Below, piece after piece: positions 6,291-16,656 of a stretch of 41,280 bases of DNA. The position numbers were made by a program, and so were the translations under genes. Position 1 is the stretch's first letter. Every line of letters starts with the position of its first letter. Source of the stretch: Gemmatimonadota bacterium (lineage in GTDB: Bacteria > Gemmatimonadota > Gemmatimonadetes > Gemmatimonadales > Gemmatimonadaceae); the NCBI GenBank assembly GCA_003223455.1, contig QHVE01000069.1, forward strand, positions 1 to 41,280, written 5' to 3'. The notes below the pieces were generated by a model. It saw only the letters and a program-made list of their open reading frames with translations. It made no database searches and was not told the DNA's origin.

Positions 6291-7750
6291 CAGTCGTCTC
6301 CCGCCGTGTTGATGGGATCGAGGGTCAGCGTGTCGAGATCGTGGTCGCGCTCCTCCGGATCGATGGGACGGCGCATCTTCGGCGGAACGATCTCCTTGAT
6401 CTCGGCGAGCGCCATGACGGGCAGCTGCTTGATGAAGAGCAGGAACCACATGAAGAACCAGCCGAACGAGCCGAGCAGAATGGAGTAGTCGACCCACGTC
6501 GGGGCGTAGCTCCCCCACTGCCAGGGCTCGAACTCGTGCGAGAGCGACGGCACGACGATCACGAACCGCTCGAACCACATCCCGAGATTGATGAACAGCG
6601 AGAGGATGAAGAGCCAGGTCGTGTTGCGCCGCAACCGCTGCGAGAAGAGCGAGAGCGGCAGCACCATGTTGCAGATCAGCATGATCCACGCGGCCCACGC
6701 CCACTGGCCGAACACGCGATTCCAGAAGTACTCCTGCTCGACTCGGTTCCCCGACATCCAGGCGACCTGGAACTCCGTGAGGTACGCGAGCCCGACGACC
6801 GACGACGTGAAGAGGCAGAGCTTGGCCGCCGCGTCGAGATCGTTGATCGTGACGAAGTGCTGGAGGCCGAAGAATCTTCGCAGCGGGATGATGATCGTGA
6901 ACACCATCCCGATGCCGGAGAAGATCGCGCCGGCAACGAAGTAGGGTGGGAACACGGTGGCGTGCCACCCGGGGGTCAGCGCCATCGCGAAGTCGAACGA
7001 AACGACGGAGTGCACCGAAAGCACGAGCGGCGTGGCGAACGCGGCGAGGAAGAGATAGGCGCGCGTGAAGTGCCGCCACTCACGATCGGAGTTGCGCCAT
7101 CCCAGCGAGAGCGCCGCGAAGATGCGCTTGCGTACCGGGTTCGTCTCCTGGTCGCGCAGGACCGCGATGTCGGGAATGAGGCCGACGTAGAAGAACGTCG
7201 CCGACACCGTGAGGTACGTGAGGATCGCGAAGACGTCCCACACGAGTGGGCTCTTCGGATTGGGCCAGATCAGCCGCCAGTTCGGATACGGGATCAGCCA
7301 GAAGAACTTCCACGGCCGCCCGAGGTGCAGGATCGGGAAGAGGCCGGCCGTCATGACGGCGAACACCGTCATCGCTTCCGCGGCGCGGTAGATCGTCGTG
7401 CGAAAGCCGGCGCGGAAGAGATAGAGGATCGCCGAGATCAGCGTGCCGGCATGGCCGATACCGACCCAGAAAACGAAGGTGATGATGTACACACCCCACA
7501 TCACCGGCGGGTGGTACCCCGCGGCGCCGAGCCCTTCATGGATCTGGTACGTCCACGCGCTGATGCCGATCAGCAGGCAGAGCACCGCGGTGCCGAGCGC
7601 CGCGAACCAGCCGAGCGTCGGACGAAGCGTGCCGATGATGTCGCGATCGACCTGCTCGTAGTCCCGCACTCCCGGCAGACGGTTGCCCGCCGACGGGATG
7701 TTGGGCCGCTGCATGCTGTCGTCGCGGCGTGGCTCCACTACGGTTGCCAT
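6290..7750 (-). CDS. actC: alternative complex III quinol-oxidising membrane subunit ActC (NrfD family)
   Basis: A 486-residue NrfD/PsrC-type integral membrane protein with about ten transmembrane helices. Recognisable family stretches include VFWVGIGHAGTLISAILYLFR, HLGRPWKFFWLIPYP and FNLGMWFERFVIVVPSL-like FINLGMWFERFVIV. In known complexes ActC forms the quinol-binding site next to the iron-sulfur subunit ActB. The N-terminal 40 residues are soluble. The gene begins 13 bases after the actB stop and overlaps actD by one base. Length and motifs agree with a complete subunit. Confidence 0.95.
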   Translation of the reverse strand: MATVVEPRRDDSMQRPNIPSAGNRLPGVRDYEQVDRDIIGTLRPTLGWFAALGTAVLCLLIGISAWTYQIHEGLGAAGYHPPVMWGVYIITFVFWVGIGHAGTLISAILYLFRAGFRTTIYRAAEAMTVFAVMTAGLFPILHLGRPWKFFWLIPYPNWRLIWPNPKSPLVWDVFAILTYLTVSATFFYVGLIPDIAVLRDQETNPVRKRIFAALSLGWRNSDREWRHFTRAYLFLAAFATPLVLSVHSVVSFDFAMALTPGWHATVFPPYFVAGAIFSGIGMVFTIIIPLRRFFGLQHFVTINDLDAAAKLCLFTSSVVGLAYLTEFQVAWMSGNRVEQEYFWNRVFGQWAWAAWIMLICNMVLPLSLFSQRLRRNTTWLFILSLFINLGMWFERFVIVVPSLSHEFEPWQWGSYAPTWVDYSILLGSFGWFFMWFLLFIKQLPVMALAEIKEIVPPKMRRPIDPEERDHDLDTLTLDPINTAGDD

Positions 7751-7763
7751 CGTCGCGCCCCCT

Positions 7764-10700
7764 TTACGACCTGGCCGGCGACGCCGGCCCCGGATGGTTG
7801 ACCTTCTTCAAGTAGACCACCGCGGTGTAGGTGTTGAGCTCTTCGAACACGTGGTACGCGCGCCGGTCCTCGACCGCCTGCGTCACCGCCCACTTGGGGT
7901 CCGCCGCATCACCGAAGGTGATCGCCCGCGACGGGCAGGCCTGCGCGCACGCGGTGGTGAACTCGTTCGCGACGAGCTCCCGACCTTCCGTCTTCGCCCG
8001 TGTCTCGGCCTCGCGGATGCGCTGGACGCAGAACGTGCACTTCTCCATCACGCCCTTCGTCCGGACGGTGACGTCGGGGTTGAGCTGCCAGTGCAGCGGC
8101 TCCGGGAACGCGTACTGCTTGCGGTCTTCCTCGCCGTAACCGAACCAGTTGAAGTAGCGGACCTTGTACGGACAGTTGTTGCTGCAGTAGCGCGTGCCGA
8201 CGCAGCGGTTGTACACCTGGACGTTGAGTCCGTCCGGCGCGTGATACGTCGCATACACGGGGCACACCGGCTCGCACGGCGCGTTGCCGCAGTGCTGGCA
8301 GAGCATCGGCGTGAACCGGGCCTCGAAGTCCTCCGTGAACTGCTCGGACTCGGCGCCCTCGAAGTAGCGCTCGATGCGCAGCCAGTTCATCTCACGCCCG
8401 CGCGTGATGTTGAACCCTGGCTTGGAGACGGCGAACACGGTGGCGTTCTGCCACGACGCGCCGACGGTCGGGATGTTGTTCTCGGCGTAGCACGCCGTGA
8501 CGCACGCCGAGCACCCAGTGCAGCGCGCGAGGTCGATCGTCATCGCCCACCGGCGATTCGCCATCCCCGACCAGTGATTCGGGGCGTACATCCCCTTCTC
8601 CTTCCCTCGATCCTCCGCGGTGGGCGACCCGAGGTCACCCTGCGCGTCGGCGGCAACGGGGGAGCGCAGTCCCGGCAGGAACTGGCCACTGGGCTCGCCC
8701 GGGATCTCCTCGTGATGCTCGCCGCGCGCTCCCTCCGCCTTTCCGCCGGCGCCTTCGCCCTGCGACCCGCCGCCGCCGCTCTCCTGATTCGCGCTGCCCT
8801 GTGGCGCCAGGGCGTTGGCATTCTCGGCGCCGCGGGACTGCTGGAGGCCGGCGAGCTGCGTGAGCGTCAGCGCCTGCGCGATGCCGCGGCCGTGCTGGCG
8901 CGCCGAGCCTTCGGTGGAGACGAGCGTCTCGTGATCGCCGGTCTTGGCGAGCGTCGCCTTGGTCGAGACCAGCGCGAGGCCGCCGGCGAGATCCGTGCGC
9001 GGCGCCAGCAGATCCTGCGTCCGCGCGCCGATGCCGCGCGCGTAGCGGCCGTAGCCCCACTGGATCGTGTTGCGATCGGTGTGCTTCGGCTCGAACGCGT
9101 CGAGTCGGGTCGCCGACGCGTGTCCCTGGCCGATGGCGACCGCCAGAGTGTCGGGGCGCACGCCGAGGTACAGGTAGGCTGGCGCGCGGACCTTTCCGGA
9201 CTGCGTCGTGACCTCGACGATGTCGCCGCGCTCGATGCCGAGGCGTGCGGCCGTCTGCGGATGAATCTCCACCCACGAGCTCCACAGCACCTTCGACACA
9301 GGGTCGGGGAGCTCTTGGAGCCACGGCTTGTTCGCACCTCGTCCGTCACCGAGGACCGGTGAGAGATACGTGACGAGATAGAAGTCGCCGTGCGAGGTAT
9401 CGAGCGACGGCGCGGCCTGGGCCGGCGCGACGGCCGCGACTGTGGGTGTCGTGCGCGGCGCGGTGCTGCCGGCGCTGACGCCCTTCGCGACCGCAGCCGT
9501 GAATGCCGACATGCCGCCGGCGAAGCGCGAGATCAGCCAGCTGCGATAGTCCCGCTGCGGGTACCGTGCGGCGTTCGCCGGGTCCTTGAGCGCGACCTGG
9601 ATGAGCACGTCCGCCGTCGCGCGCGTGCCCGAGAACACCGGATCCATCGCCGGCTGCTGCGTCGAGATCACATTCGGAGTCGCCTGTGCGTCGCCCCACG
9701 ACTCGAGTGAGTGCTGATCGGGAAGGATCAGGTCGCAGAGCTCGGTGGTCTCGTCCGGGTACATCGAGAAGCTGACCTTGAACGGCACCTTCGCGAACGC
9801 GTCGGCGAACCGTGCGCCCGCTGGCAGCGAGAATGCCGGATTGGCGCCGCGCACGAAGGCGATCGGCACCGCACCCGAGCGCATCTGCTCGACCGTGGCA
9901 AGCACGTCGGCGACGCGAACGGCGCCGTCGAACGCCGTCATCGGCTCGGCGTTCCTGATCGTGGTGCCGACGGCGCCCGCCGACTGATTGATCGCGACGA
10001 CCGCCTGCGCGAGCGCGAGCGCGTCTGGCCCACGTGCGCCGGCGAGCACGAGCGCGGGCTTCGCCGTGGTGAGCTCCTGCTGCAGGCGTGCGAGCGTCGC
10101 CTCGGAAACACCGCTCGCGGTGGCTGCGTCGGCCAACGTACCACGGCCGGCGAGCGCATTGGCGATCGCGACCTCCGATCCGGGGCGGCACGCGATCCAC
10201 TGATCCGCGTTGAGACCCGTGAGCGACCGCCGCGGACCGACGTAGACGAAGCGCGGCGCACCCTCGATCTTCGCGCGCGCGTCGGCGAAGTCGAGCTGCT
10301 GCGGGACCGACATTCCCCAGCCGTCGAGGAAGTCGGCGCCGAACGAGACGATGAGACGTGCGTCCTGGAACGACAGCCGCGGCCAGCTCGTTCCGTAGGC
10401 GGCACGGTTGGCTTCTACGGCCGCGCTGTCCGCCTCGAAGTCGACGCTGAGGTGCGGGCGCATGCCGAAGCCGGCGAGCCACGCGTCGAGGAAGGAGGGA
10501 AAGCTGCCCGTCTCGTGCTGATTGATGAACACCGCGTTGGCTGCGGAGCCGCGGCTCCTCGCCTCGCCGATCCTCTGGCTCAGCAGCGTGAGGGCGCGGT
10601 CCCAGTCGATCGGCTTCCAGACGCCGCCCTCCTTGACCATGGGGCCGCGCAGCCGGTCCGGGTTGTACAGCCCCTGCACCGCAGACTGTCCGCGCGCGCA

Positions 10701-10907
10701 CAGCGCGCCGCGGTTGAGCGGATGCTCCGGGTTTCCCTCGAGCTTCGTGACGCGGCCGTCACGCGTCTCGGCGATGACGCCGCAGCCCGCGGCGCACTCG
10801 CGACAGGTCGTCGCGTAGTAGGTCGATGCGACGGCGGCGCTGGACGCTCCGAGCACCTTCAGGAAGTCACGGCGCTTGACGCCCGTGGACCCTGTCTGGT
10901 TGCTCAT
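7764..10907 (-). CDS. actB: alternative complex III iron-sulfur subunit ActB (MopB fold plus ferredoxin domain)
   Basis: A 1047-residue fusion. A Tat signal (KRRDFLK, residues 11-17) starts it. Residues about 30-640 form a molybdopterin-oxidoreductase-like domain without obvious cofactor-ligand motifs of active enzymes. A Gly/Gln/Glu-rich linker of roughly 100 residues follows. The last third is a DmsB/NrfC-type ferredoxin domain with four cysteine groups (CTGCSACVTAC, CQHCGNAPCEPVC, CVGTRYCSNNC, CTFC with ACAQAC), expected to hold three 4Fe-4S and one 3Fe-4S cluster that pass electrons from ActC to the haem subunits. Unusually, the N-terminal domain keeps CxxCxxxC plus a fourth cysteine (C35, C38, C42, C70), the pattern of an active molybdoenzyme's 4Fe-4S site. 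It starts 21 bases after actA. Confidence 0.95.
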   Translation of the reverse strand: MSNQTGSTGVKRRDFLKVLGASSAAVASTYYATTCRECAAGCGVIAETRDGRVTKLEGNPEHPLNRGALCARGQSAVQGLYNPDRLRGPMVKEGGVWKPIDWDRALTLLSQRIGEARSRGSAANAVFINQHETGSFPSFLDAWLAGFGMRPHLSVDFEADSAAVEANRAAYGTSWPRLSFQDARLIVSFGADFLDGWGMSVPQQLDFADARAKIEGAPRFVYVGPRRSLTGLNADQWIACRPGSEVAIANALAGRGTLADAATASGVSEATLARLQQELTTAKPALVLAGARGPDALALAQAVVAINQSAGAVGTTIRNAEPMTAFDGAVRVADVLATVEQMRSGAVPIAFVRGANPAFSLPAGARFADAFAKVPFKVSFSMYPDETTELCDLILPDQHSLESWGDAQATPNVISTQQPAMDPVFSGTRATADVLIQVALKDPANAARYPQRDYRSWLISRFAGGMSAFTAAVAKGVSAGSTAPRTTPTVAAVAPAQAAPSLDTSHGDFYLVTYLSPVLGDGRGANKPWLQELPDPVSKVLWSSWVEIHPQTAARLGIERGDIVEVTTQSGKVRAPAYLYLGVRPDTLAVAIGQGHASATRLDAFEPKHTDRNTIQWGYGRYARGIGARTQDLLAPRTDLAGGLALVSTKATLAKTGDHETLVSTEGSARQHGRGIAQALTLTQLAGLQQSRGAENANALAPQGSANQESGGGGSQGEGAGGKAEGARGEHHEEIPGEPSGQFLPGLRSPVAADAQGDLGSPTAEDRGKEKGMYAPNHWSGMANRRWAMTIDLARCTGCSACVTACYAENNIPTVGASWQNATVFAVSKPGFNITRGREMNWLRIERYFEGAESEQFTEDFEARFTPMLCQHCGNAPCEPVCPVYATYHAPDGLNVQVYNRCVGTRYCSNNCPYKVRYFNWFGYGEEDRKQYAFPEPLHWQLNPDVTVRTKGVMEKCTFCVQRIREAETRAKTEGRELVANEFTTACAQACPSRAITFGDAADPKWAVTQAVEDRRAYHVFEELNTYTAVVYLKKVNHPGPASPARS

Positions 10908-10928
10908 TCGATCAGATCCTCGGGCGGT

Positions 10929-11672
10929 CTAGTAGTGACAGGCCGCGCAGTCGTAGCGCGCGCGCCGGCGCTCGACCGACGGAGTGGCGCCGCCGTTCGA
11001 CGCGACGGTAGCCGGCGGGGTCGTGCGTGCCGAGTCGGGGACGACTCCCATGCCAGGCGACGAGAGCGAGATGCCCGCGCGCGTGCCAGGCGTGCCGTAC
11101 GGCGCCCCACCCGAGTAGCCGGCCGGCGGCACGTTGTCGTAGCCAGCGGCCTTCTGCCCTTCCTTCGGATCGTAGCCGTTCACGTGGCAGTTGACGCACC
11201 ACCCCATGTTCAGCGACGCGTACTGGTAGACCTGCGCCATCTTCTGTACCTGGCCGTGGCAGGTCTGGCAGGTCACTCCCGCGTTCACATGGCGAACGTG
11301 CGGGAAGTGGACGTACTCGGGAACCTTATGAATGCGCACCCAGGGGACGGGGCGCTTGTCGGCGTAGTACTTCGCGAGCTTCTGGATCTCCGGCTTCTGT
11401 GCCGCGACGATCGTGTGGCACCCCATGCAGGTGTTGACCGCGGGCATGCCCACGTCCTGCGACTTGTTGGCGGTGTTGTGGCAATAGAGGCAGTTCATGC
11501 CCAACCCGCCGTCCTTCGTCGCGCCCGCGTGTCTCGGGTGCGGGAAGTTGATCGGCTGCGTCGGCTGATTGCCCTGTGAGGATGATGCGCCACTGTAAGC
11601 GGAGAGCACGACGGCGCCGATCACGAGCAGGAGCAACCCTGGGATCGCCGTCCACTTCCTTCGCTGCGTCAT
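10929..11672 (-). CDS. actA: alternative complex III pentahaem cytochrome c subunit ActA
   Basis: A 247-residue protein, first gene of the operon. One N-terminal hydrophobic segment (IPGLLLLVIGAVVLSAYSG) anchors or exports it. Five CxxCH motifs are present: residues 61-65, 82-86, 135-139, 159-163 and, at the very end, 242-246, matching the five c-type haems of known ActA. Extra histidines (HPRH, HFPHVRH) are candidate sixth ligands. The stretch between haems 4 and 5 is rich in Gly, Pro, Thr and Ser. It receives electrons from ActB and relays them to ActE or a soluble acceptor. A CRP-like dyad lies 35 bases upstream of the start. Confidence 0.95.
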   Translation of the reverse strand: MTQRRKWTAIPGLLLLVIGAVVLSAYSGASSSQGNQPTQPINFPHPRHAGATKDGGLGMNCLYCHNTANKSQDVGMPAVNTCMGCHTIVAAQKPEIQKLAKYYADKRPVPWVRIHKVPEYVHFPHVRHVNAGVTCQTCHGQVQKMAQVYQYASLNMGWCVNCHVNGYDPKEGQKAAGYDNVPPAGYSGGAPYGTPGTRAGISLSSPGMGVVPDSARTTPPATVASNGGATPSVERRRARYDCAACHY

Positions 11673-11867: not shown

Positions 11868-12629
11868 CTACCGACCGAGCGAGGCGACATCCGTGATCGC
11901 TGCGTGGCGCAGCGATTCGGGAAGCAGATCGAGATTGGCGCGCGCGTTCTGCGTGAGCCGGAGCGGCCAGTGCGTGCCGTACACGAAGCGCTCGGCGCCG
12001 ATCGTACGGACGAGATGCGCGAAGTGATCCTCGGGGGGGCCCCAGATCCACGCGAAGTCCCACAAGACGCGTCGCTGCTCGTCGGGGGTGAGGCTCCAGT
12101 GCGTCTCCTCGAGCAGCTCGCGGCCGGCGCCGGTCACGACGAGTCGAACCGACGCGCCCGCTCGGGCGAGCGTCCGGATGTGCGCCGCGGTGAGATCACC
12201 CGCCACGTCGAGGGCGCTGCGCTGGCGCAGGTCCTCGAAGCGCACGGTGAGCACGAGTGGCACGCGCAGCTCGCCACACGAGAGCGCGAGCGCGCGCATG
12301 GAGGCGTCGTGCGGCCCCATCCCCCAGTGCATCGGGTAGGCGCGGATGGCCGGCGAGCCCTGCTCCACCAGATCGCGCAGCATGTGCTCCCAGCGCGGCC
12401 AATCGGGACGCACCACCGGAGCGGGGTGGAGAGTGGAGCGGTGCGGCACGAGCGCGGCGAGCAGCGACTCGTTGGCGGCGACCGGGTCGCGCTGCCATGG
12501 TGCCGGCAGATAGCCGACCCACGCGCCGGACAGCCCTTCGCGCGCGAGCACCCGCACGAGGACGTCCGGGTCCGGATGCGGGAGCTGCCGGAATGGATAC
12601 GGGCCGATGAACGCCGCGCAGTCGATCAT
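11868..12629 (-). CDS. amidohydrolase-fold protein lacking metal ligands (likely pseudoenzyme)
   Basis: A 253-residue relative of the amidohydrolase-2 TIM barrels and of the gene directly upstream. Strand landmarks align with that neighbour, but every expected metal ligand is changed. The HxH of strand 1 is CAAF (A5 and F7), the strand-5 histidine position is L127/T128 in PLVLTVR, the strand-6 histidine is G167 in RLVVTGAG, and the strand-8 aspartate in the FVYGTHWP segment is H220. It begins inside the upstream stop codon (ATGA), so the two are made together. A non-catalytic partner or regulator of the intact enzyme is the simplest reading; a metal-independent reaction is the alternative. 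It ends the five-gene run, 195 bases before the act operon. Confidence 0.75.
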   Translation of the reverse strand: MIDCAAFIGPYPFRQLPHPDPDVLVRVLAREGLSGAWVGYLPAPWQRDPVAANESLLAALVPHRSTLHPAPVVRPDWPRWEHMLRDLVEQGSPAIRAYPMHWGMGPHDASMRALALSCGELRVPLVLTVRFEDLRQRSALDVAGDLTAAHIRTLARAGASVRLVVTGAGRELLEETHWSLTPDEQRRVLWDFAWIWGPPEDHFAHLVRTIGAERFVYGTHWPLRLTQNARANLDLLPESLRHAAITDVASLGR

Positions 12630-13429
12630 GCGGCGACGCAGCGCGGAAAGGTCCCCGGCGGGAAGAGCCGCGCCGCATTTCCCCAGCGAACGGCGCGCAG
12701 ATCGTCCTCGGGCAGCCCGACGACCTCGAGCGCGCGAAGCTTGGCGAGCCCGGTCTCCATCGTCAGATCGCAGGCCCAGAGGAGCCGCTGCGCTCCGAGC
12801 ACCTGGAGCGCGGTGTCGATCATGCCGCGATCCACGCCGCTGCCCGAGAGATCGGGGTAGACGTTCGGCGTGTCCACGACCGCCGGAAGCGTATGCGCCC
12901 AGTCTCCGCCGCCGCCAAGGTGGGCCAGGATGAACGCCACCCGCGGATGCCGCGCGGCGAGGCGCGCGAGGTCGCGGCCGTCGGAGATCTCCTGGTTCGG
13001 CCACTCGCGGGTGCGATGCTGCCAGATGTGATGCAGGATGGGAAGTCCGTGCTCTTCGGCGAGCGCGCAGATGGGATCGTTGAGCGCATCATCGGCGCGA
13101 CGGCTCGCCAGTAGCTTCACGCCCACTGCGCCCGACGCGACGCCGCGCGCGATCTCGTCGAGCGCATGGGCGGTGTGGTTCGGATTCACGGTGACGTACC
13201 AGCGCACGCGCTCGCGGTCGGCGTCGGCCATGGCGCGCATGACGTCGTTCCCACGCGAGACGTCGGTCGGCGAGGTGTGTCCGTACGAGCCGAGCACGCT
13301 CACGACGTGATACGTCACACCGATCGCGTCACCGGCGCGCATCCGCGCCGCATTGACGCGCTCCCAATCGCCCCGGCCCGATTCGGCGTGATAGAAGTGC
13401 GCGTGCGCGTCGATGAGCGGATCCGTCAC
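12626..13429 (-). CDS. amidohydrolase family protein (amidohydrolase-2 type, metal ligands intact)
   Basis: A 267-residue cytoplasmic TIM-barrel hydrolase or decarboxylase. The ligand set is complete: H9 and H11 (DAHAH), H133/H134 (PILHHIW), H170 (FILAHLGG) and D221 (WACDLT), the same layout as ACMSD-type amidohydrolases. The start is GTG 13429, overlapping the purU stop by four bases; no ATG offers the DAHAH strand with less overlap. The substrate is unknown. Its place between a formyl-THF hydrolase homologue and a metal-less paralogue suggests a small-molecule pathway rather than housekeeping. Length is short compared with many family members (about 300) but the fold appears whole. Confidence 0.85.
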   Translation of the reverse strand: MTDPLIDAHAHFYHAESGRGDWERVNAARMRAGDAIGVTYHVVSVLGSYGHTSPTDVSRGNDVMRAMADADRERVRWYVTVNPNHTAHALDEIARGVASGAVGVKLLASRRADDALNDPICALAEEHGLPILHHIWQHRTREWPNQEISDGRDLARLAARHPRVAFILAHLGGGGDWAHTLPAVVDTPNVYPDLSGSGVDRGMIDTALQVLGAQRLLWACDLTMETGLAKLRALEVVGLPEDDLRAVRWGNAARLFPPGTFPRCVAA

Positions 13430-14331
13430 TCGAACACCACGGCGCGGTCGCCGCTGAGAAAGACGCGCTCCTCGAGCAGGAGGGTCAACGCGTGGGCGAG
13501 CACGATCTTCTCCACATCGCGTCCGGCCCGTGCCATGTCCGCCGCGGTGTGCGCGTGCGTCACCGGTCGCACGTCCTGGGCGATGATCGGTCCCGTGTCC
13601 AGATCGTCCGTGACGATGTGCGCGGTCGCGCCGATGATCTTGACCCCGCGATCGAACGCCTGCTGATACGGGCGCGCACCGACGAAGGCGGGCAGGAACG
13701 AGTGGTGGATGTTGACGATGCGCGCCGGATAGGCGGCCACGAACGCCGGCGAGAGCACGCGCATGTACTTCGCGAGCACGAGGAACTCGGGGTCATACGC
13801 CGCGAGCACGTCGCGGATCGCCGCTTCGTGCTCGGCGCGATCGCGTCCTTCATGACTCACGTGATGGAACGGCACGCCGAATCGTTCCACGAGCCGGCCG
13901 AGCGTCGGATAGTTGCTGATCACCGCCTCGACGTGCGCCGGGATGTCCCCCTCCGCATGCCGCAGCAGGAGGTCGCCGAGGCAATGCGCCTCCTTCGTCG
14001 CGAGAATGACGATGCGACGCGGCTCGGTGGTGGCGATGCGCACGTTGGCGTTCAGCGGCAGCTCCGTCCGGAGCTCGCCGATGAGCGCGTCGGTGGGCCG
14101 GTCGCCGGCGAATGCCGTCCGCATGAAGAAGTGGCGTCGCATGGGGTCGACGTATTCGTGATTGCTCACGACACTGAATCCCGCGCGGAACAGCACGCCG
14201 GTGATCCGATGCACCAGCCCCACCTCGTCGGGACAGTCGATCAGCAGCAGCCGCGTCGTCGCTTCCGATGACGCCGACGCCCGCGACGCGTCGAGGGACG
14301 TGCGCGCCGCATCGGCGGGGCGCAGCGTCAT
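13426..14331 (-). CDS. purU: formyltetrahydrofolate deformylase-like protein
   Basis: A 301-residue protein: about 25 variable residues, an ACT domain (about 26-105, LLLIDCPDEVGLVHRITGVL), then a formyltransferase domain. The catalytic triad of the family is present: N207 and H209 (IVNIHHSFLP) and D245 (DDLDTGPII). PurU hydrolyses 10-formyl-THF to formate and THF, balancing one-carbon and glycine pools or feeding PurT. Translation is coupled on both sides, sharing one base with the aminotransferase stop and four with the next amidohydrolase. That context is unusual for a folate housekeeping gene, so a role in removing or moving a formyl group in a small catabolic pathway is possible. Confidence 0.88.
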   Translation of the reverse strand: MTLRPADAARTSLDASRASASSEATTRLLLIDCPDEVGLVHRITGVLFRAGFSVVSNHEYVDPMRRHFFMRTAFAGDRPTDALIGELRTELPLNANVRIATTEPRRIVILATKEAHCLGDLLLRHAEGDIPAHVEAVISNYPTLGRLVERFGVPFHHVSHEGRDRAEHEAAIRDVLAAYDPEFLVLAKYMRVLSPAFVAAYPARIVNIHHSFLPAFVGARPYQQAFDRGVKIIGATAHIVTDDLDTGPIIAQDVRPVTHAHTAADMARAGRDVEKIVLAHALTLLLEERVFLSGDRAVVFE

Positions 14332-15674
14332 CAGCGCGAACGCTCCCAGTCGGCGAGGGCGACGAGTGCGCTGCTCGTCGCTGCCTCGATCTCCTGAATC
14401 GCATCCTCGTCGTGCGCCACCGCGGCGAAGTTGTACGCGCCACGCTTGACGATCGCGCCGGCCCTCGCGCACTCGGCGAGGAATCGCGCCTCGCGAACGG
14501 CGTCGTCCCAGCGAAGCAGAAACATCGGGTCGATTCCGTCGATCGTGACGCCACCGATTCCGCTCGCGGCGATGGCCCGCTCGAACGCTGCGCGGAGCTC
14601 CCGCCCCGTCTCGGCGAGGGTGGCGCAGACATCGGCTTCCTCGTGCCAGTCGAGGACGGCGAGCGCCGCGGCGAGCGCCGTGGACTCGCTGGCGAGGGTG
14701 GAGGAGATCCACGTCTCGCGCGCCGCGTCCATGAGCGCGGCGCGACCGACGACCGTCGCCAGGGGATAGCCGTTGGCGAGCGCCTTGCCGAACGTCGCCA
14801 GATCGGGCGTGATGCCGCACACCTCTTGATATCCGCCGGGTGCGACGCGAAACCCCGTCTTGATCTCGTCGAACACGAGTGCGGCGCCGCTCGCGTCGCA
14901 CAGCTCGCGCGCGCGGCGCAGCCAGTCCTCGGAGGGCGCGCGTTCGACCACCGGCTCAAGCACGACGGCCGCGAGATCGGACCCCGCCTCGGCGACGGCG
15001 CGCTCGAGTGCCGCGACCTCGTCGAACGGCACGCGCTGCGTCGCGGACCGCACGGCCGCGGGTACCCCTGCCGCGTCGGACGACCAGTCGTGCCAACCGA
15101 AGTAGCCGCACGAAATCACGCGCTCGCGTCCGGTGTAGGTCCGCGCGATGCGCACCGCCGCCGACGTCGCCTCGGCGCCCGTCTTCAGAAACTGCACGCG
15201 CTCGGCACAGGGAATGAGCGTGTGCAGCCGCTCGGCAAGCTCCACCTCGCGCCAGCTCGACAGCGCGCCGAGGTGGCCCTCCGTTACGGCCTCCACGACG
15301 GCCCGCGTGACGCGCGGCTCGCCGTACCCGAGCGCGACGGAGCCGAGCCCCATCGTGCAATCCACGTAGCTCGTGCCCTGGACGTCGACGACCCGGCAGC
15401 CGCGCGCCGAGAGCAGATGCGTGGGCAGATCGGCATCGGCGTCGTCACCCCAGAGCGCGACGGCGCGCTTGCTCCCCGTCGAGGCGCCCGTGGGGAGAAC
15501 AGCTTCCGCGCGCTCGCGCCAGCTACGCTGGCTGGCGGCTTCCGGCGACGCGTCATCGACGTCCGTGACGTCGGGCTCGCTCTCCTGCTCGTCGCCGCTC
15601 TCCGCCGGCTCGTCGACCGGAGGTTGGGCGGGCGGGGCGTCGCGGCCGCGGCCGAAGAATCGTGAGAAGGCCAT
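14331..15674 (-). CDS. class III PLP-dependent aminotransferase (glutamate-1-semialdehyde-aminomutase-like)
   Basis: A 447-residue fold-type I enzyme. Residues from about 75 on match class III aminotransferases: the phosphate-binding region FLKTGAEATSAAVRIAR, the stacking region GYFGWHDW, the cofactor aspartate in LVFDEIKTGFR and the PLP lysine in TFGKALANGYPL. The first 60 or so residues, after MAFSRFFGRGRD, are acidic and low in complexity. The lysine context differs from genuine HemL (which has GKxIGGGLP), so tetrapyrrole synthesis is unlikely; related enzymes act on sugars or amino acids in accessory clusters. ATG 15674 is 31 bases after trmJ and the stop overlaps purU by one base. Confidence 0.88.
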   Translation of the reverse strand: MAFSRFFGRGRDAPPAQPPVDEPAESGDEQESEPDVTDVDDASPEAASQRSWRERAEAVLPTGASTGSKRAVALWGDDADADLPTHLLSARGCRVVDVQGTSYVDCTMGLGSVALGYGEPRVTRAVVEAVTEGHLGALSSWREVELAERLHTLIPCAERVQFLKTGAEATSAAVRIARTYTGRERVISCGYFGWHDWSSDAAGVPAAVRSATQRVPFDEVAALERAVAEAGSDLAAVVLEPVVERAPSEDWLRRARELCDASGAALVFDEIKTGFRVAPGGYQEVCGITPDLATFGKALANGYPLATVVGRAALMDAARETWISSTLASESTALAAALAVLDWHEEADVCATLAETGRELRAAFERAIAASGIGGVTIDGIDPMFLLRWDDAVREARFLAECARAGAIVKRGAYNFAAVAHDEDAIQEIEAATSSALVALADWERSR

Positions 15675-15705
15675 GTCGGAAAGAGAGGAACGCGAGCGGG
15701 TGGCG

Positions 15706-16545
15706 TCAATCCTCCGCGTCGTCCGACGCGGAGCGGCGCTCGTGGCGCGGGACGATGTGACGCGGCGGACGCGGCGCGACGTCGGGCGGGCGTGCCCGTT
15801 CGATGCGACCGGTGCGCTCGAGGAATCTGACGACCTCGAGAGCGGTGGCGCGAAGGAGCGACAGCTCGCGCGCATCGGGAGCCGCCCGGAATGTCAGCGC
15901 GCGGATGGAGCGCATGATGTGCTCGGGATAGCGCGTCTTGAAGAACTGGATCGCCTCGAGTGCCTGGTGGGCCTCGGCGAAGAAGCGCTCGAACTCCTCG
16001 GTGGTGGCAGGTGGCGCTTCCTTTCGCGGGCCGGGCAGCGTACGGGTCGCATCGCCAGCGGCGAGGTGCAGCTCGTAGAGCGCGATCAGCACGGCCTGCG
16101 CGAGGTTGAGCGAGGCGTGCTCCGTCGTCGGGATCGTGACGGCGGCGTGAAGGCGATCGAGGATCTCGTTGGGCAGGCCGTTGTCCTCGCGACCGAACAC
16201 GAGACCGACCCATCCGTCCTCGACATGCGCGAGAGCGTCCTGCGCCGCGCCGCGCGGATCGAGGATCTGCCATTTCGCGGCACGGCGTCGGGCGGTGAAT
16301 CCGACGAGGCGCACGCAGTCGGCGACGGCGCCGTCGAAGTCGTCGTAGTGCGCGATGCGGTCGATGACGTCCCATGTGTCGTGGGCGATCCCTTCGAGTC
16401 GAACCGGATCGTACGCGCACGGTCGCACCAGCCGCAGCGTCGACACGCCCATGTTCTTCATCGCGCGGACCGTGGCGGCGATGTTCACCGGATCCTGCGG
16501 CTCGAAGAGCACGACGGCGATGCGGGAGAGGCGTGACTCGCTCAT
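15706..16545 (-). CDS. trmJ: tRNA (Cm32/Um32) 2'-O-methyltransferase, TrmJ-like SPOUT enzyme
   Basis: A 279-residue TrmH-superfamily methyltransferase. The three family motifs are clear: PVNIAATVRAMKNMG near the start, LVFGREDNGLPNEIL in the middle and IPTTEHASLNLAQAV forming the SAM-binding knot. A C-terminal helical extension, as in TrmJ, ends in a basic and acidic tail. The expected substrate is position 32 of the anticodon loop. I place the start at ATG 16545 because the conserved first strand begins soon after; an in-frame ATG at 16599 would add 18 residues without homology. Neither has a clear ribosome-binding site. It heads the minus-strand run of five genes, most of which overlap. Confidence 0.88.
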   Translation of the reverse strand: MSESRLSRIAVVLFEPQDPVNIAATVRAMKNMGVSTLRLVRPCAYDPVRLEGIAHDTWDVIDRIAHYDDFDGAVADCVRLVGFTARRRAAKWQILDPRGAAQDALAHVEDGWVGLVFGREDNGLPNEILDRLHAAVTIPTTEHASLNLAQAVLIALYELHLAAGDATRTLPGPRKEAPPATTEEFERFFAEAHQALEAIQFFKTRYPEHIMRSIRALTFRAAPDARELSLLRATALEVVRFLERTGRIERARPPDVAPRPPRHIVPRHERRSASDDAED

Positions 16546-16656
16546 GCCGAAAGGTAGAGGGCCCGCCGCGCGCTTGAAGGGGTCCGACGGGCGCTCCATG
16601 CTTGCGGCGCGCGGCGGTCAGATCATGCGACCCGTTTCCAGAGCCTCGAGCGCGCT

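Follow-up and report, generated by a model that had tools for sequence, protein, structure and literature searches.

A metal-competent amidohydrolase and its metal-less paralogue, neighbors in Gemmatimonadota and fused in haloarchaea, as candidate subunits of one enzyme

Gene pair and genomic context

We analyzed a window of 41,280 nucleotides (the whole stretch of DNA considered here) from contig QHVE01000069.1 of a Gemmatimonadota bacterium. On its minus strand lie two adjacent genes encoding AmdA, an amidohydrolase, and AmdB, a protein of the same predicted fold that lacks a metal site (Table 1). Both frames are complete and joined by an ATGA, as described in the initial annotation of this DNA, with the stop codon of amdA and the start codon of amdB sharing the four bases. 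AmdA was assigned to the Pfam family PF04909 (Amidohydro_2; E 6.3e-27, 95.5 bits against a curated cut-off of 26.4), and AmdB of the window gave no family match in Pfam or NCBIfam. A search of the window's own genome for further copies of either gene returned none that was significant. With start codons picked by script, the 4-base overlap was found in 29 of the 51 relatives in which both genes were measurable and an overlap of any kind in 31; the gap exceeded 40 bases in three. A chance overlap of open reading frames was considered and rejected, since frame, order, and residues have been maintained among relatives.

Table 1. Features of the amdA-amdB locus (positions in the window)
Feature	Position	Strand	Remarks
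AmdB, metal-less paralogue, same predicted barrel fold	11868..12629	minus	ATG start, 253 aa
ATGA overlap, AmdA stop and AmdB start	12626..12629	minus	shared bases
AmdA, metal-competent PF04909 amidohydrolase	12626..13429	minus	GTG start, 267 aa
PurU-type formyltetrahydrofolate deformylase	13426..14271, start approximate	minus	TIGR00655, 339 bits vs cut-off 286
Class III aminotransferase AT3	14331..15875, ORF as listed	minus	PF00202; homology to relatives from about residue 101
TrmJ/SpoU RNA methyltransferase	15706..16599	minus	often, not always, between heparinase-like gene and AT3
Heparinase II/III-like protein, 904 aa	16657..19371	minus	PF07940; upstream member of conserved cluster

The gene order in Gemmatimonadota is heparinase II/III-like gene, often trmJ, class III aminotransferase gene, amdA, amdB, and then genes of a cytochrome complex. 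In 48 of 54 relative loci, the AT3 gene immediately precedes amdA, at a gap of ≤90 bases. Among the same 54 loci, many of which are cut by contig ends, a heparinase-like gene was present in 39, trmJ in 34, and an ActA-like gene in 43. In the window, the PurU-type gene is placed between the aminotransferase gene and amdA, and its stop codon overlaps the GTG of amdA. No such gene was found at the 54 relative loci or in nine further genomes of the genus, which suggests a recent insertion into an otherwise tight operon. Downstream of amdB, positions 6293-11672 carry genes resembling those of alternative complex III (6293-7750 by an NrfD match, the rest named by reading the sequence), and two complex III-like genes follow amdB in most relatives as well.

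Paralogy and loss of the metal site

The relationship between the two proteins was not visible by BLASTP. Comparison of the AmdA and AmdB profiles with hhalign gave an E-value of 8.6e-4 at a probability of only 23.6%, and 19 of the 54 AmdB relatives matched PF04909 at E ≤ 1 (best 2.5e-7). In the joint alignment, the two share 14.3% identity over 237 columns. The structural model of AmdB (pLDDT 93.1) matched amidohydrolase barrels over its full length, e.g. 2DVT with a Z of 20.6 over 240 residues (rmsd 2.7), so the fold landmarks appear to be intact, as had been proposed; the match list consists of Foldseek's own hits, compared again, and missing other folds is uninformative. The model of AmdA (pLDDT 90.1) matched the same families. 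Judged by the profile match, the PF04909 hits among relatives, and the predicted fold, AmdB is a paralogue of AmdA.

The residue pairing given in the initial annotation (H9-A5, H11-F7, H133/H134-L127/T128, H170-G167, and D221-H220) was reproduced by the joint alignment and, in the same register, by the profile alignment. The claim that AmdA keeps all site residues of the ACMSD type stood for five positions, with one correction: the ambiguous H133/134 is H134, since 12 of 50 AmdA sequences have Q at position 133 and the alignment with ACMSD places the histidine at 134. Residue counts were based on alignment A1 (53 of the 54 AmdB relatives plus the window) and alignment A2 (48 of 51 AmdA plus the window), which leave out L057, a short AmdB fragment, and amdA genes cut by contig ends; the per-position tallies, such as that for position 133, leave out two short AmdA and one short AmdB. 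H9, H11, H134, H170, and D221 are all kept in 49 of 49 AmdA (A2). Given the correspondence with ACMSD, in which H9, H11, H177, and D294 bind zinc and H228 is catalytic (excerpts of PMC11650718), AmdA would strictly have four ligands, and H170 would be a further active-site residue.

As stated earlier, none of the site residues survives in AmdB of the window (A5, F7, T128, G167, and H220). The same holds, at 0 of 5, for 53 of the 54 AmdB sequences in A1. The exception (L055:5989-6774), more divergent than any other AmdB in the set, keeps one, a histidine at the H170 position, which may be a remnant of the ancestral site. Where AmdA has the catalytic Asp, AmdB varies (H, Q, W, M, G, or A), and R96, which aligns with K105 of AmdA, is an arginine in 96% of AmdB.

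Co-occurrence and selection

A single-protein scan of genome contigs yielded the 54 AmdB relatives, of which 52 are assigned by their titles to Gemmatimonadota (Roseisolibacter included) and one, a fragment, to Proteobacteria. AmdA is encoded directly upstream in 51 of the 54; of the other three, two start at a contig end and one has the genes apart. Among 298 Gemmatimonadota genomes, 113 carry both genes, none amdA alone, two amdB alone, and 183 neither; five further AmdB matches were weak (E 2e-5 to 9e-4) and are left out of this AmdB count. In one of the two amdB-only genomes (G235) the gene lies at a contig end; the other (G276) has no detectable AmdA, and its AmdB match starts at residue 11. 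The two genes are within 150 bases of each other in 110 of the 113 genomes with both. Wider spacing was seen in G147 (659 bases), G155 (33 kb on one contig), and G228 (two contigs). In G155 (contig C10; L074 and L075), amdA has stayed with trmJ and the aminotransferase gene, amdB is found 33 kb away, and both persist.

Ratios of dN/dS (Nei-Gojobori) were computed for pairs with all three genes present and within set dS limits. In the two closest pairs they were 0.137 and 0.101 for AmdB, 0.129 and 0.043 for AmdA, and 0.147 and 0.070 for the aminotransferase. Median values over the 66 pairs with dS <1 were 0.366 for AmdB, 0.360 for AmdA, and 0.450 for the aminotransferase, with a maximum of 0.705 for AmdB; base composition inflates the ratios of distant pairs. 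AmdB is thus in the range of its neighbors, and no relaxation relative to them was seen. The initial annotation had argued from the complete frame against simple decay of the second gene. Both tests bear this out: selection on AmdB resembles that on the adjacent genes, and AmdB is missing from 0 of the 113 genomes with AmdA.

Conservation on the active-site face

Conservation within AmdB is concentrated in the loops of the active-site face, i.e. at the C-terminal ends of the strands, whose limits were set by hand from the secondary structure of the model. Invariant positions make up 23 of 93 in these loops vs 12 of 142 elsewhere (Fisher p 0.0012), and entropy is lower in the loops (p 1.7e-7). 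Residues kept in at least 98% of AmdB include R14, R74, E132, D133, R135, Q136, R137, D141, D145, and R224. AmdA shows the same tendency, with 29 of 67 face-loop positions vs 29 of 183 elsewhere. In the monomer models, confidence is among the lowest in the most conserved loops (residues 131-140 of AmdB at pLDDT 71 and 141-150 of AmdA at pLDDT 57). Such low values would be expected if a partner orders the loops, and may also come from a shallow alignment. A mirror-tree analysis revealed no distinctive co-evolution of AmdA and AmdB; the partial r ranged from 0.125 to 0.334 and was below that of AmdA and AT3 in all three sets.

Fused and reordered halves

In tblastn searches of plasmids, AmdA and AmdB queries matched the same haloarchaeal open reading frames. 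Both halves are contained in six single coding sequences, namely (i) Natronosalvus NLK60_RS19175; (ii and iii) Halomontanus P1Y19_RS23400 and RS23125; (iv) Haloprofundus LAQ73_RS16025; (v) Halosolutus MUH00_RS19795; and (vi) Natrononativus NMQ11_RS16745. In these, AmdA corresponds to the N-terminal half (26-29% identity) and AmdB to the C-terminal half (25-30%). Two more Halomontanus frames (RS23265 and RS23270) are built in the same way, bringing the total to 8 on five haloarchaeal plasmids. All 8 have 5 of 5 site residues in the N half and 0 of 5 in the C half. Among the best 40 of 75 plasmid matches of the fusion query, those outside the five records reached at most 46% coverage.

The opposite arrangement, with the metal-less half first, was encountered in Halomontanus (RS23405 and RS23225), in Gemmatimonadota, and in Subdoligranulum variabile. 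The Halomontanus rarus plasmid (NZ_CP119797.1; L079, L083, and L084) carries four forward and two reverse fusions as well as a single HxH amidohydrolase. The Gemmatimonadota fusions, in another family of the phylum (f11), were reached through weak AmdB matches; three of the five matches mentioned above are reverse-order fusions and two (L070 and L071) are not. With an f11 fusion as query, near full-length matches were obtained in five genomes, with G001 having two copies, and a match cut by the contig end in a sixth, G005. Its second half matched amdA loci and its first half the amdB loci of G012, G015, and G282. Residues were read in two complete fusions and a contig-cut one. In the two complete fusions, the metal-less half scored 27.8 and 18.1 bits with the AmdB profile vs 6.7 and 5.6 with that of AmdA, and the HxH half 40.0 and 42.5 bits with the AmdA profile vs 25.2 and 28.2 with that of AmdB. 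On the Subdoligranulum variabile plasmid, the halves are two overlapping frames, again with the metal-less one first (L088, 4983-5738 and 5656-6546). The halves have switched places at least once.

To trace the metal-less halves, a tree of 53 halves was built, in which Gemmatimonadota were represented by 11 AmdA and 11 AmdB out of a larger number of rows. All 24 metal-less rows fell on one side of a branch with support of 93/93, or 87/73 when columns around the five site positions were removed. Gemmatimonadota AmdB and the haloarchaeal C halves grouped together at 99/98, and at 100/97 without the site columns. These groupings give good support for shared ancestry of AmdB and the haloarchaeal C halves; a single origin of all metal-less halves appears likely but is not firm.

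Metabolic setting

Elsewhere in the window we found glycosidases of families GH38 and GH20, an SBP_bac_5 protein, and an Amidohydro_1 protein. The haloarchaeal fusions are accompanied by sulfatases, sugar oxidoreductases, and ABC transporters; the Subdoligranulum pair stands beside NagB-like and NagA-like frames (named by reading the sequence), and a GH42 protein is encoded near one f11 fusion. Because of these glycosidase, sulfatase, and sugar-gene neighbors, glycan or amino-sugar metabolism is the likeliest setting. A heparinase common to the window and the Halomontanus clusters was also considered and rejected, as BLAST gave no match and the haloarchaeal protein has no Pfam hit; for lack of this match, we do not claim the whole cluster as common to both. 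The class III aminotransferases of the window and of the Halomontanus cluster are 33% identical, which is not specific.

Possible mode of action

Because AmdA and AmdB are nearly always together in one bacterial order and are fused in haloarchaea and some bacteria, they most likely form one machine. The initial annotation had suggested either a stoichiometric complex or a metal-free activity; the forward haloarchaeal fusions and the reverse ones of Halomontanus and f11 argue strongly, if indirectly, for a complex. Fusion alone is no proof of a composite site, since fusions also join enzymes of consecutive steps. Points that tell against a complex are the lack of a distinctive mirror-tree signal, the variable spacing of the genes, and genome G276 with its AmdB but no detectable AmdA. 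In our view, AmdA and AmdB are probably the catalytic and the non-catalytic subunit of one obligate heteromeric enzyme, which would involve physical contact, a 1:1 ratio, a composite pocket, and a glycan or amino-sugar substrate. AmdA would supply a single-metal active site of the ACMSD/gamma-resorcylate-decarboxylase type. AmdB would have lost its metal site long ago and retained the barrel with its strongly conserved active-site face. Most likely it sits against AmdA, where it would order the active-site loops of the latter, and its polar residues (an Arg/Glu/Asp-rich face including the motif RFEDLRQR) would help to form a substrate pocket made up of both chains. A meeting of the two faces, with AmdB adding to the pocket of AmdA, is suggested by the conserved low-confidence face loops, and by ACMSD, which needs Arg239 from the neighboring subunit (excerpts of PMC11650718). 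Cross-subunit sites thus exist in this family.

An unlikely alternative, although the best of those considered, is that AmdB is itself an enzyme, catalyzing a reaction without metal at the same face of its barrel in a step before or after that of AmdA, so that the fusions would join consecutive steps. The active-site face is the best conserved part of AmdB, its charged residues E132, D133, R135, R137, D141, D145, and R224 are invariant, the arginine at the K105 position is nearly constant, and LigI, a PF04909-like relative, works without a divalent metal. On the other hand, the variability at the catalytic-Asp position speaks against such an activity, as does the charged motif, of which the haloarchaeal C halves retain only a part (E-D and an R). 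To our knowledge, no PF04909 enzyme works without any of these site residues.

Still less probable is a ligand-binding regulatory or folding partner, which would bind substrate or product and control AmdA without shaping its active site. The genomic and fusion evidence would suit this role equally, AibH1 (see below) is believed to serve the structural integrity of its complex, and there are known cases of catalytically dead paralogues activating enzymes, according to excerpts of the literature; the conservation, however, lies on the active-site face instead of being even over the barrel, a bias that mere folding does not need. Finally, a decaying duplicate of AmdA, as the lost ligands and the 14% identity might suggest, was rejected on dN/dS and linked presence and absence and can practically be dismissed, given also the intact frames, the 35 invariant columns in 54 AmdB sequences, and the haloarchaeal fusions that have been kept.

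Returning to the two-subunit enzyme, we tentatively extend it to a broader proposal, which is slightly less likely than not: AmdA-AmdB could be a member of an ancient amidohydrolase family of bacteria and archaea that functions only as enzyme plus pseudoenzyme, in which the metal-less half arose once and has since always been kept beside an active half, the two being split, fused, or swapped several times. In its composite active site, one barrel would hold the metal and the second would provide the residues that bind the substrate. Annotations as 'amidohydrolase family protein' would then include two-barrel enzymes of bacteria and archaea with one barrel devoid of metal, so that annotating half of these sequences as hydrolases calls for caution. 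The same pair as split genes and as fusions, in both orders, offers a natural system for studying what a dead paralogue adds to catalysis.

Comparison with known systems

A planctomycete family presumably shares a similar N-terminal motif. Among characterized enzymes, the 2-aminoisobutyrate hydroxylase AibH1H2 of Rhodococcus wratislaviensis is similar to AmdA-AmdB in that two adjacent paralogous genes encode this barrel fold. It is a heterotetramer of two kinds of amidohydrolase-superfamily barrel that share 28% identity and of which only one is catalytic (excerpts of PMC7782822, PMC10401708, and PMC12141560). AibH chains were among the fold matches of AmdB, and none was among the matches listed in the sequence searches. 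In the same excerpts, AibH1 holds a metal on D24, H26, H201, E255, and D328, in contrast to the ligand-free AmdB, and AibH2 binds a dinuclear Mn/Fe center through another ligand set (D, H, H, E, D, H, and D), whereas AmdA has HxH-H-H-D. AmdA-AmdB may work like AibH1H2 without being a member of that system, since its helper lacks ligands and its catalytic subunit lacks the dinuclear set.

The ACMSD/gamma-resorcylate decarboxylase family provided the best fold and sequence matches of AmdA, which has equivalents of the ligands and of H228. In contrast, ACMSD is a homodimer, whereas the proposed partner of AmdA is a separate metal-less protein, and the gene neighbors point to glycans and not to aromatic acids. 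Another inactive chain, pseudo-dihydroorotase, is a member of the amidohydrolase superfamily. In Pseudomonas aspartate transcarbamoylase, it is needed by its partner enzyme (excerpts of PMC7053772). Unlike in AmdA-AmdB, this partner is an unrelated transcarbamoylase instead of an active paralogue, and the inactive chain belongs to the dihydroorotase branch. Searches of the open-licence literature listed no paper describing a metal-less partner of a PF04909 protein, which, with subscription papers outside this scope, is weak evidence of novelty. A different kind of loss was observed in Variovorax, where a single amidohydrolase-like protein (L087:3845-4735) is without the HxH and has the last His and the Asp, a partial loss unlike that of AmdB.
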